Origin: Thermomicrobium sp. 4228-Ro
GTDB taxonomy: Bacteria > Chloroflexota > Chloroflexia > Thermomicrobiales > Thermomicrobiaceae
Direction of reading: 5' to 3'
Assembly: GCF_026241205.1 (NCBI RefSeq)
Contig: NZ_JAPFQM010000001.1
Span: forward strand, 620,001-684,000
DNA: 64,000 bases
Made by a program: the position numbers and the translations under genes. Positions 6,384-11,860 of the stretch are shown here, one piece after another; position 1 is the stretch's first letter; every line of letters begins with the position of its first letter. The notes beneath the pieces were generated by a model. The model saw only the letters and a list, made by a program, of their open reading frames with translations. It searched no databases and had not been told where the DNA came from.

Positions 6384-6493
6384 CGCTCATCCAGAGCGGT
6401 GGAGGGAACGGCCCGACGAAGCCCGGCAACCAGCGCAGGCCACTGCGCCAGGTGCCAATGCCGGCGGAGCAGAGAGGCTCCGCACGATGAGCG
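6384..6493 (+). promoter_or_regulatory. SAM-I riboswitch (S box)
   Basis: The P1 helix pairs CGCTCATC (6384-6391) with GATGAGCG (6486-6493). Between them lie the conserved S-box elements in order: AGAGCGGTGGAGGGA, GGCCCGACGAAGCCCGGCAACC and GGTGCCAATGCC, followed by a P4-like hairpin rich in GGAGC/GCTCC. The element binds S-adenosylmethionine, and binding stabilises P1 and favours the downstream terminator. It sits in the leader of metX, so it should shut methionine synthesis when SAM is abundant. Confidence 0.93.
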
Positions 6494-7830: not shown

Positions 7831-8829
7831 TCAGCCAGCTGGATCGATCCGCGGAAGCAGCGCCGGGCCGAACCGCACGGCATCGATGACATCGGCGATC
7901 AACGCAGCGGCGGTGGGCGCGGGGCCAGCCCCTGGCCCGTACAGGACGACCGTGCCGACCCGGTCACAGGTGAGTTCGATCGCATTCAAATTGAGGCGCA
8001 CGTGCGCGAGAAGGTCGTTCCCCGAGACGAAGACCGGATGCACCCGCAGTTCCCAATCGCCGTTCTTGTACACCGCCTCCGCAATCAGTTTCACCGCCCC
8101 ACCGCGCGTCCGCGCGTCGAGGATCTGATCCGGCGTGACGCTGGTTATCCCGCGGCGATCGATCCGCTCGGGGTGAATATGCCGGCCAGCCACGAGCGAG
8201 GCGAGGATGCTCAGCTTGTAAGCCGCATCGAACCCCTCGACATCAGCAGTCGGGTCCGGCTCGGCGTAGCCGCGGCGTTGTGCTTCGCGCAGGGCGTCAT
8301 GGTATGCTACCCCCTCCTCGGCCATCATGGTCAGGATGAAGTTCGTCGTCCCGTTCACGATACCCCGGATCCGCTCCACGCGGTTGACCGACAAGAGCTG
8401 CCGCAGGCTCGCCATCAGCGGAATTCCTGCTCCCACGCTCGCTTCGAAGAGGAGCGCTCGCTGCCTCTCGCGCGCCACAGCGACCAGCTCCGCGAAGTGC
8501 TTGCTCAGAGCCTCCTTGTTCGCCGTGACGACGTGTTTCCCCGCCAGCAAGGCACGTTTCAAGTAGGTGGCAGCTGGCTCCTCACCGCCCAGTGCCTCGA
8601 CGACGACGACCACGTCCGGATCCTCGAGTATCGGATCGATACTGGTGGTCGCAGCATGTTCCGGCAGACCAGCCGCGACCACCCGTTCCGGATGGCGAGC
8701 CATGCCCCAGCGCACGTCGATCCGAAGGCCTGTGCGTCGCGCAAGCTCGTCCCCCTTGTCCTGGAGGGTCTTGGCAACAGCTGAGCCGACCGTTCCGACT
8801 CCGAGCAACGCGACACCGACTGTCTGCAT
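7831..8829 (-). CDS. hom: Homoserine dehydrogenase
   Basis: 332 residues from ATG 8829, chosen because GGAGAGG lies 7 bases upstream; an ATG at 8871 lacks one. The NAD(P)-binding GVGTVGSAVAKTL is at the N-terminus. The catalytic domain follows, with VTANKEAL, IVNGTTNFIL, GYAEPDPTADVEGFDAAYK (substrate-binding Asp and the Lys of the relay) and a C-terminal GPGAGPAPTAAALIADV. It reduces aspartate semialdehyde to homoserine, feeding Met and Thr/Ile. The C-terminal ACT domain of many bacterial Hom proteins is absent, so classic allosteric inhibition by threonine through that domain is unlikely. This makes RNA-level control of the neighbouring genes more significant. It is transcribed divergently from asd. 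Confidence 0.93.
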   Translation of the reverse strand: MQTVGVALLGVGTVGSAVAKTLQDKGDELARRTGLRIDVRWGMARHPERVVAAGLPEHAATTSIDPILEDPDVVVVVEALGGEEPAATYLKRALLAGKHVVTANKEALSKHFAELVAVARERQRALLFEASVGAGIPLMASLRQLLSVNRVERIRGIVNGTTNFILTMMAEEGVAYHDALREAQRRGYAEPDPTADVEGFDAAYKLSILASLVAGRHIHPERIDRRGITSVTPDQILDARTRGGAVKLIAEAVYKNGDWELRVHPVFVSGNDLLAHVRLNLNAIELTCDRVGTVVLYGPGAGPAPTAAALIADVIDAVRFGPALLPRIDPAG

Positions 8830-8854
8830 CTGACGACCCTCTCCGCTCGTTTCC

Positions 8855-8883
8855 TTGACCCACAACGCCATGCCTGGTACAGT
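8855..8883 (+). promoter_or_regulatory. Promoter for the asd leader
   Basis: TTGACC (8855-8860), 17-base spacer, TACAGT (8878-8883). Transcription would start near 8890, about 230 bases before asd, leaving room for the leader peptide and attenuator. Confidence 0.7.
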
Positions 8884-8958
8884 GACGCCAGGCGCACACA
8901 GGGTAGGCGAGCCCTGGCGCCTCGCGCAACGGGAAGGGTGCTTGAAGGAGTGGACGCC

Positions 8959-9033
8959 GTGCGCATGACTGGCCGCGTCACGACTACGACAACAGCGACT
9001 CGTCGCGCCGGCGTGCGCTCGGGCAGCCCGTGA
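8959..9033 (+). CDS. Threonine-rich leader peptide of asd
   Basis: 24-codon reading frame, GTG 8959 to TGA 9031-9033. AAGGAG (8945-8950) lies 8 bases before the GTG; ATG 8965 is an alternative start in the same frame. The peptide reads VRMTGRVTTTTTATRRAG and then VRSGSP. Seven of 24 codons are threonine, five of them consecutive (8980-8994), and they use ACG, ACT and ACA. It is followed by mutually exclusive hairpins ending in a terminator before asd. This is the layout of a ribosome-mediated transcription attenuator: scarce Thr-tRNA stalls the ribosome and permits transcription of asd. It is too short for ordinary gene finders. The function is inferred by analogy with thr operon leaders; the codon run and pairing are directly visible. 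Confidence 0.8.
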   Translation: MRMTGRVTTTTTATRRAGVRSGSP

Positions 9034-9062
9034 CGCGCGGTGAATCCCGAGCGAGCGCCGGC
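9007..9062 (+). promoter_or_regulatory. Antiterminator helix of the asd attenuator
   Basis: 9007-9023 pairs with 9046-9062: 17 positions with one G-A mismatch and one G-U wobble, and two perfect blocks of 8 and 6 bp. Its 3' arm (9057-9062) includes the first five bases of the terminator's 5' arm, so the two structures exclude each other. The 5' arm lies inside the last codons of the leader peptide. A translating ribosome masks it, whereas one stalled on the threonine codons leaves it free. Confidence 0.75.
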
Positions 9063-9090
9063 AGGGGCTGTTGCCTCTGCCGGTTTTGTT
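9058..9090 (+). terminator. Attenuator terminator before asd
   Basis: An 11-bp stem (9058-9068 with 9073-9083, one G-T wobble), loop TGTT, then TTTTGTT. It is a strong intrinsic terminator in front of a gene rather than behind one. Confidence 0.88.
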
Positions 9091-9121
9091 GTGTCGGACG
9101 TTTTCGTGAAAGGAGGCTGTC

Positions 9122-10174
9122 GTGGCAGAACGGATCGATGTCGCGATTCTGGCGGCGACCGGGAGTGTCGGACAGCGCTTCGTGCAGTTGCTGGCTGGTC
9201 ACCCCTGGTTCCGCATCGCCGAGCTGGTAGCCAGCGACCGCTCCGCAGGTAAACGGTACGCCGATGCGGTGAACTGGCGCATCAGCGCTGCGCCACCGGA
9301 GGAAGTCCGCGATATCGTCGTCAAGCACATCGAAGAACCGATCCAGAGTCCGGTCGTCTTCTCCGCGCTGCCTGGCGGAGTTGCAGGCGCGATCGAGGAA
9401 GCGCTCGCCCGTGAGGGAAAGAAGGTCTTCACCAATGCGCGCGATCACCGCATGGATCCTGACGTACCGCTCCTCATTCCCGAGGTCAATCCGGACCATG
9501 CCCGGGCGATCGAGCGGCAACGGCAGCTCCGCGGCTGGCGCGATGGGTTCATCGTCGCCAACCCGAACTGCTCGACGATCCATCTCGTTCTCGCTCTCAA
9601 GCCGCTTTACGATGCCTTCGGGATCGAACAAGGTATCGTGACCACGTTGCAGGCCGCGTCGGGAGCCGGTTATCCCGGTGTCCCCTCGCTCGATCTCATC
9701 GACAACGTGATCCCGTACATCGGCGGCGAGGAAGAGAAGATCGAAGCCGAATCCCGCAAGATCCTCGGCCAGTGGGCCGACGGCATCTTCCAGGACGCTC
9801 CGCTGACGCTCAGTGCGCACTGCAATCGGGTGCCGGTTCGTGACGGGCATCTCGAGACTGTCAGCCTCAAGCTCCGCCAGCAGGCAACTGCGGCCGAGGT
9901 GATCGAGGTGCTGCGCTCCTTCCGTGCTCGCCCTCAGGAACTCGAACTTCCCAGCGCGCCGCGCCACCCCGTGATCGTGCTCGACGAGCCGGATCGCCCG
10001 CAGCCGGTACTCGATCGCGATGCCGAACGCGGGATGGCGTCGGTGGTCGGCCGCGTCCGGCCCTGCCCGGTCTTCGATATCCGCTTCGTCGTACTGGGGC
10101 ACAACACGATCCGCGGTGCTGCTGGGGCTTCGGTCCTCAACGCCGAACTCTTCTATCGCGAGGGCTTGCTCTGA
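9122..10174 (+). CDS. asd: Aspartate-semialdehyde dehydrogenase, archaeal/fungal type
   Basis: 350 residues. GTG 9122 follows AAAGGAGG. The N-terminal nucleotide-binding loop reads AATGSVGQRFVQLL. The active-site cysteine lies in VANPNCSTIHLVLALKP, LQAASGAGYPG follows, and the substrate-binding region has SAHCNRVPVRDGHLE. These blocks match the archaeal/fungal branch of the family rather than the E. coli branch. The enzyme reduces aspartyl phosphate to aspartate semialdehyde, the shared precursor of Lys, Met, Thr and Ile. Its transcript carries the threonine leader peptide and terminator described above. It is followed by a strong terminator and appears monocistronic. Confidence 0.94.
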   Translation: MAERIDVAILAATGSVGQRFVQLLAGHPWFRIAELVASDRSAGKRYADAVNWRISAAPPEEVRDIVVKHIEEPIQSPVVFSALPGGVAGAIEEALAREGKKVFTNARDHRMDPDVPLLIPEVNPDHARAIERQRQLRGWRDGFIVANPNCSTIHLVLALKPLYDAFGIEQGIVTTLQAASGAGYPGVPSLDLIDNVIPYIGGEEEKIEAESRKILGQWADGIFQDAPLTLSAHCNRVPVRDGHLETVSLKLRQQATAAEVIEVLRSFRARPQELELPSAPRHPVIVLDEPDRPQPVLDRDAERGMASVVGRVRPCPVFDIRFVVLGHNTIRGAAGASVLNAELFYREGLL

Positions 10175-10240: not shown

Positions 10241-11860
10241 TCACGGTGCGACCGGTACCAGCTGCGGGATCCTCGCCGCGACCTCAGGTCGCGTCACCAG
10301 CGGGTAGGCGAGGCTATCTGCCAGTGCGAGCCACGACGCTTCGATGATGTTTTCCGACGACCCGACCGTGTTCCAACTGCCTTGGGCATCTCCGGAGCGA
10401 ATCCAGACGCGTACTTTGGCTCCTGTCCCGTGGTGGTCGTCCAGCACGCGCACCTTGTAGTCCTCGAGCTCGACCTTCGCGATCTCCGGGTAAAACTCCT
10501 GCAGAGCCTTACGCGTGGCACGGTCGAGCGCATTCACCGGCCCGTTTCCTTCTGCTGCGGTGTGGAACACCTGGTCGCCGACCCGCAGCTTCACCATCGC
10601 TTCGGCGAGCATGCCACGTCCGTTGCGGTACTCGGTCAGCACAGTGTAGTCGAGGACTTCGAAGGGAGGCCGATAGTCCGGCAAGTTCCGCCGGATCAGG
10701 AGCTCGAGTGACGCATCGGCGTCTTCGAACCAGTACCCCTGGAACTCCAATTCCTTGATCTGCTCCAGGACGCGCCGCACCACCTCCGGCTTGTCGGAGA
10801 GTTCGATCCCGAAGCTCCGCGCCTTGACGATGATGTTGCTGCGGCCACTCAACTCGCTCACCAACACGTGCCGCGTATTCCCGACGACTTCCGGAGGCAT
10901 ATGCTCATAGGCTGACGGATGTTTGGCGATCGCGTTGACGTGCAGTCCTGCCTTGTGGGTGAACGCGAAGGCACCGACGAACGGCAGGCGCGGATCGTGC
11001 GTGAGGTTCGCGACCTCGGCCACGTAGCGAGACGTTTCGGTCAGCTTGCGCAACTGTCCCGGTGGCAGGCACCGGTAGCCGAGCTTGTACTCGAGGATCG
11101 GGATGATCGAGCAAAGATTGGCATTCCCGACTCGCTCACCGAGCCCATTGATCGTTCCCTGGACATGCGTCGCACCAGCCAGTACTGCCGCGATACTGTT
11201 CGCGACCGCCAGCTCGCAGTCGTTGTGCGTGTGGATCCCGACCGTGCAGGAAACCGCAGCGATCGCGTCACGGACAGCTCGTACCAGGGGATCGGTCAGT
11301 GTGCCACCGTTGGTATCGCAGAGCACGACAGCATCGGCACCGGCATCGCAGGCGGCTCGGAGCACCTCAAGCGCGTACTCGCGATCCTCGGCGTACCCAT
11401 CGAAGAAGTGCTCGGCATCGAAGATGACCTCGCGCCCAGCCCGCTTGAGGTAGGCAACCGACTCCGCCACCATGCGGAGATTCTCCTCGAGCGTCGTCCC
11501 GAGGATCTCGCGCACCTGGAACGACGATGCCTTGCCGACGATCGTGACCGTCGGCGTTTCGGCAGCGAGCAACAGTCGAAGATTCGCGTCGTCCTCGACG
11601 GCGATACCAGCCCGACGCGTGCTCCCGAATGCCACGATCCGCGCATGCTTCCACTGCTCGTGGCGAGCGCGCTCGAAGAACGCCATGTCCTTCGGGTTCG
11701 AGCCAGGCCAACCACCTTCGATGTAGGCAACGCCCAGCTCGTCGAGCGCGCGGGCGATCTTCAGCTTGTCCTCGGTAGTCAGCGAGACGCCTGAACCCTG
11801 CGTCCCGTCGCGCAGCGTCGTGTCGTAAATCGCCACCCATCGTCCCTCGTGCTCGTTCAT
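10241..11860 (-). CDS. cimA: (R)-citramalate synthase
   Basis: 539 residues, the usual CimA length. GGAGGAGGG precedes ATG 11860. The N-terminal TIM-barrel has the HMGL/LeuA signatures YDTTLRDGTQG, FDAEHFFDGY, VLCDTNGG and GIHTHNDCELAVANS (metal-binding His residues). The C-terminal LeuA-dimer regulatory domain runs from about residue 400 and includes EGNGPVNALDRATRKAL and GSSENIIEASWLALADS. CimA condenses pyruvate with acetyl-CoA to citramalate, giving a threonine-independent route to 2-oxobutyrate and isoleucine. It is preceded by its own promoter, an isoleucine-rich leader peptide and a strong hairpin, so it appears controlled by isoleucyl-tRNA charging. Confidence 0.93.
   Translation of the reverse strand: MNEHEGRWVAIYDTTLRDGTQGSGVSLTTEDKLKIARALDELGVAYIEGGWPGSNPKDMAFFERARHEQWKHARIVAFGSTRRAGIAVEDDANLRLLLAAETPTVTIVGKASSFQVREILGTTLEENLRMVAESVAYLKRAGREVIFDAEHFFDGYAEDREYALEVLRAACDAGADAVVLCDTNGGTLTDPLVRAVRDAIAAVSCTVGIHTHNDCELAVANSIAAVLAGATHVQGTINGLGERVGNANLCSIIPILEYKLGYRCLPPGQLRKLTETSRYVAEVANLTHDPRLPFVGAFAFTHKAGLHVNAIAKHPSAYEHMPPEVVGNTRHVLVSELSGRSNIIVKARSFGIELSDKPEVVRRVLEQIKELEFQGYWFEDADASLELLIRRNLPDYRPPFEVLDYTVLTEYRNGRGMLAEAMVKLRVGDQVFHTAAEGNGPVNALDRATRKALQEFYPEIAKVELEDYKVRVLDDHHGTGAKVRVWIRSGDAQGSWNTVGSSENIIEASWLALADSLAYPLVTRPEVAARIPQLVPVAP

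Follow-up and report, generated by a model that had tools for sequence, protein, structure and literature searches.

The gene asd, which encodes aspartate-semialdehyde dehydrogenase, is very probably controlled in the 64,000 nt stretch of DNA analysed here (hereafter the window, which belongs to genome G000 of a Thermomicrobiales bacterium, phylum Chloroflexota) by ribosome-mediated transcription attenuation in response to charged tRNA-Thr and, in relatives, also tRNA-Ile. This reading rests on sequence and covariation, namely on the peptide, its codon bias, the position of the stop codon, the exclusive helices, their conservation and the pathway-matched codons, from which we infer translation of the peptide, ribosome stalling at the Thr run and transcript ends at the terminator. 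With less confidence, we also consider it probable that the Chloroflexota possess their own widespread and largely homologous attenuator family, in which a common hairpin chassis is combined with a pathway-swapped codon cassette (Thr/Ile before asd and lysC-asd, Trp/Phe/Tyr before DAHP synthase), and that in one genus the sensor that acts on the following gene of the operon is a Thr tail at the C-terminus of LysC, in place of a leader peptide. The features of the window to which we will refer are the following.

7831-8829, reverse strand: hom, homoserine dehydrogenase lacking an ACT domain, divergently oriented to asd, with a probable start at 8829
8855-8883, forward strand: sigma-70-type promoter, TTGACC (8855-8860), 17 nt spacer and TACAGT (8878-8883), with TGG preceding the -10 hexamer
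8944-8950, forward strand: Shine-Dalgarno sequence GAAGGAG of the leader peptide
8954-9014, forward strand: possible protector (1:2) pairing of ACGCCG (8954-8959) and GCGC (8961-8964) with GCGC (9005-9008) and CGGCGT (9009-9014), tentative and weaker in L003
8959-9033, forward strand: leader peptide VRMTGRVTTTTTATRRAGVRSGSP, 24 codons, GTG start, stop codon at 9031-9033
8968-9000, forward strand: regulatory Thr codons, ACT (8968-8970), ACG ACT ACG ACA ACA (8980-8994) and ACT (8998-9000)
9007-9023, forward strand: 5' arm of the antiterminator (arm 2)
9046-9062, forward strand: 3' arm of the antiterminator (arm 3)
9058-9091, forward strand: intrinsic terminator CCGGCAGGGG-CTGTTG-CCTCTGCCGG (9058-9083) and T-tract
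9122-10174, forward strand: asd, aspartate-semialdehyde dehydrogenase (TIGR00978 asd_EA)

The promoter TTGACC-17-TACAGT is the sole promoter-like match within 8700-9200, where shuffled sequences lead one to expect none, and transcription would start at about 8890; comparable TTGAC(N)-TACAGT or TATCGT elements are seen 5' of the leader in relatives. The short leader ORF possesses a start codon and a ribosome binding site, its translation being predicted, and purine-rich sites precede the leader starts in most relatives. Five of the seven Thr codons of the peptide are consecutive (8980-8994), and, with both strands counted, the window has only two places with runs of at least five ACN codons. 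Arm 2 is located between these regulatory codons and the stop codon, which itself falls into the antiterminator loop between arm 2 and arm 3, and the intrinsic terminator sits between the leader ORF and asd. The antiterminator (9007-9023 with 9046-9062) reaches -41.5 kcal/mol (z about -3.4 against dinucleotide shuffles) and the terminator stem (9058-9083), with 12 pairs, -23.6 kcal/mol (z -3.2), the sequence that follows from 9084, where the T-tract begins, being TTTTGTTGTGT. Since both helices use bases 9058-9062, they are mutually exclusive. The features of the asd leader are far beyond chance. Promoter, 24-codon peptide, seven Thr codons, antiterminator and terminator had all been located correctly, to the base, in an earlier note on this DNA, and the five bases that it assigned to both helices are indeed shared.

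These elements would work together as follows. When Thr is scarce, the ribosome would stall in the Thr run just 5' of arm 2 and leave arm 2 free to pair with the newly made arm 3; this pairing would block the terminator, and asd would be transcribed. When Thr is abundant, the ribosome would reach the stop codon, 24 nt into the antiterminator, and thereby cover arm 2, so that arm 3 would go to the terminator and transcription would end near 9084-9091. In most other genera a protector hairpin would pair with arm 2 and lead to termination when nothing is translated. Such a hairpin follows directly after the last Thr or Ile codon and overlaps arm 2 in most genera outside that of the window (g1), in which a local protector hairpin does not stand out from shuffled sequence; the tentative 1:2 pairing of the window leader was taken from the MFE fold of 8950-9095.

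Relatives were sought in 150 genomes of the window's class and then in the genomes of its own family (f1, n = 21) and of the sister family (f3, n = 5). All 24 asd genes from f1 and f3 for which upstream sequence was available are preceded by the leader, although these represent ten genera only; one peptide (L004) is identical to another (L002), which leaves 23 leaders in the further analysis. In 40 further genomes of the class, no terminator stands immediately 5' of asd, with the exception of genus g61 of family f14. The leader peptides of f1 and f3 comprise 22-36 codons, and the stop codon lies 24-30 nt past the start of arm 2 in all leaders analysed (24 nt in the window). Codons of the pathway end products are enriched and kept in relatives: among the codons before the antiterminator, 113 of 363 (31%) encode Thr and 39 of 363 (11%) Ile, while the genes of the window have 5.7% Thr and 5.5% Ile, and ACT makes up 34% of the Thr codons in the leaders versus 7% in seven window genes. 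Genera g1 and g2 possess Thr runs, g3, g6 and g11 mixed Ile/Thr peptides (IITIIDGMTIT), and g4 peptides of Thr, Ile and Met (ITITGMTMTTT). The check on homologous leaders that had been set beforehand thus turned out in favour of attenuation, all 24 genomes of f1 and f3 having a leader that codes for Thr/Ile and both helices showing covariation. What was proposed as a Thr attenuator on asd stands in its leader and helices, but the codons of the family are those of Thr plus Ile, and the use of Thr only is a habit of the window's genus.

Both helix bases were predicted by RNAalifold on an unconstrained MAFFT alignment of the asd leaders. With the structure fixed, 94.8% of the cells are paired and 38 cells carry compensatory double changes; in 500 shuffles, neither pairing nor covariation score nor the count of doubly changed cells ever came up to the real values, and structures slid along the alignment are paired at 36-60%. 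The number of pairs with a double change was reached by 22 of 500 shuffles and that of further pair types by 35 of 500. When antiterminator arms were exchanged among the ten genera, the duplex energy of -17.7 kcal/mol for own arms weakened to -13.7 kcal/mol, and none of 20,000 permutations paired as well as the real partners; two g4 sequences (L018, L026) had been anchored one GGCAG too early, which makes this test conservative. In every relative from f1 and f3, leader peptide and asd are separated by a covarying antiterminator and a strong terminator with its T-tract, and it is for this reason that we regard it as very unlikely that the leader boosts asd mainly by translational reinitiation, even though the peptide ends about 90 nt 5' of asd and reinitiation has been put forward as a general role of leader genes (PMC4833913).

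We derived a covariance model from the asd leaders and scanned with it 301 genomes from the phylum and 61 from the order; its renewed recovery of asd leaders is no test, because they were its source. In f2, f4 and f5, other families of the order, leaders such as VISTTEITTIPPAGSGVRG and MSMTIMITTTTTTPGWPGGESA were also recovered, immediately 5' of lysC. Thr and Ile account for 51% of the codons in these lysC leaders, and asd, located after lysC in f2 and in most of the f4 genomes inspected, lacks a separate leader there. In f1, lysC is located elsewhere in the genome, with no such leader in five genomes inspected, and its product shows an identity of only about 37-40% with the f2 query, which suggests that lysC was replaced in f1 or lost from a lysC-asd operon. 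The simplest history of f1 would be that lysC, once located between leader and asd, was lost. A direct comparison of two aspartokinases, L238 of f1 and L262 of f2, gives about 39% identity, and their genomic place differs.

Family f14 provides a further variant. In four of four genomes of its genus g61 (L173, L174, L176, L172), lysC-asd encodes a LysC with an extended Thr-rich C-terminus, ending in ETTTTTSERL, ETTTPQLV, TTTTATETVQLV or TTTTATHTMQLV. This tail is followed by the arm GCCAGCGG or a variant of it, which could form a helix with the 5' side of a terminator located in front of asd, less cleanly so in two of the four genomes (L163, L164). The other two genera of f14 have neither Thr tail nor terminator. 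The end of the upstream lysC may thus serve in g61 as the leader peptide for asd.

A second match of the model in f1 genomes precedes DAHP synthase (aroF, its identity read from sequence), and the window's genome carries one as well.

G000 C1:547367-547515, reverse strand: aroF attenuator (L228), with leader MGSCLLQHQVWFAYYFSPPALLAGRWVLKR and a chassis as in the asd leader

In this genome the ATG of the aroF leader lies about 10 nt after the -10 hexamer, and for this reason the transcript may be nearly leaderless. The f1 aroF leaders encode QHQVWFAYYF(S/T)PPALLAG, and most of the sixteen best matches in other classes likewise precede DAHP synthase, with YYYWW, FFFFY, FSFYYWF or YTYAF. Phe, Trp and Tyr make up 24% of the codons in the DAHP synthase leaders, Thr and Ile 5%; the counts of Thr and Ile against Phe, Trp and Tyr are 230:15 in Thr-pathway leaders and 17:77 in aromatic leaders (Fisher p about 1e-43, a value that overstates independence as the rows are phylogenetically related). 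Of 20 model matches that were fetched, one (L233) lies before an unrelated gene. Another match (L191) is found 5' of a putative tyrosyl-tRNA synthetase gene, where one frame has EYYT, and is a possible Tyr attenuator. Constant hairpins combined with codons that follow the pathway are the signature of ribosome-mediated attenuation. The asd leader is therefore not the isolated single-gene oddity that it had first appeared to be, since related attenuators of Chloroflexota also precede lysC-asd and, with aromatic codons, DAHP synthase.

The same shift bears on two further explanations. The Thr run could be a conserved nucleotide element resembling GACTACTAC, with the hairpins as an ordinary terminator and an upstream hairpin, and a GACTAY motif does recur shortly 5' of arm 2 in many leaders; however, all four Thr codons as well as Ile codons occur, their positions vary, the window's genus has the motif diluted yet keeps Thr, and the aroF leaders encode Trp, Phe or Tyr at the corresponding place, which makes this account highly improbable. 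A T-box or metabolite riboswitch with an incidental Thr-coding frame is equally hard to credit: T-boxes are known in Chloroflexi (PMC3766115) and a SAM riboswitch precedes metX in the window, but 8840-9140 gave no T-box (RF00230) or riboswitch match at relaxed thresholds, only weak chance matches to sRNA and miRNA models, the alignment of asd leaders has no conserved aptamer-like core, conservation being confined to helices and codon content, and that content shifts with the downstream pathway.

The asd leader might be the main sensor of threonine, as the earlier note had suggested from the lack of an ACT domain in the Hom protein. A domain search agrees that Hom lacks this domain, but the conclusion does not follow, because LysC, the aspartokinase of the window's genome, carries two ACT_9 domains; the suggestion is unsupported. 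The longest hom frame starts at 8871, within the asd promoter. Near hom and asd, the SAM riboswitch (RF00162) is found at 6384-6493 on the forward strand, 5' of metX, and a gene for citramalate synthase (TIGR00977), the enzyme that opens an alternative route to isoleucine, lies at 10241-11860 on the reverse strand, convergent to asd.

In the open literature we found no attenuator described for asd, aspartokinase, DAHP synthase or Chloroflexi, any claim of priority being provisional. According to a survey limited to Rfam models (PMC3766115), amino-acid attenuators may have arisen in gamma-proteobacteria and have been transferred only a few times, and a survey of leader genes called its results for Chloroflexi insignificant, the genomes being too few (PMC4833913). 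The trp and leuS attenuators of Actinobacteria are classical attenuators outside Proteobacteria, no threonine attenuator having been found in that group (PMC1262725). They possess three-way complementary GC-rich triples, much like GCCGG-CCGGC-GCCGG here, but concern other amino acids and genes (PMC1262725). The presence in Chloroflexota of a covarying attenuator family with Thr/Ile and aromatic members speaks for a greater age of the mechanism or for more than one origin. The asd leader is new in the Chloroflexota literature searched, while ribosome-mediated attenuation is a kind of regulation already known.

Proteobacterial leaders of the pheA/trp type have runs of aromatic codons before a gene of the aromatic pathway. 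The same is true of the aroF leaders described here, which, however, use the chassis of the Thr/Ile leaders and precede DAHP synthase across Chloroflexota; the aroF and lysC leaders gave no cis-regulatory match in Rfam at gathering thresholds. The independent variation of chassis and codon cassette makes the family a natural experiment on specificity change, and, to judge from the LysC-tail form, the end of an ordinary gene can turn into a sensor.

The leader of the enterobacterial thr operon (Rfam RF00506 Thr_leader, thrL of E. coli) contains runs of Thr and Ile codons and targets thrABC. With it the asd leader shares the Thr/Ile codon runs, the exclusive antiterminator and terminator, and a target in the aspartate-family pathway. 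By contrast, the leader described here belongs to another phylum, controls asd alone or lysC-asd, and has its stop codon in the antiterminator loop. Neither gathering nor relaxed thresholds of Rfam returned a cis-regulatory match for the asd leader, RF00506 being absent even at E up to 10. In its mechanistic working the asd leader is like the enterobacterial thr leader, but it stands outside RF00506.
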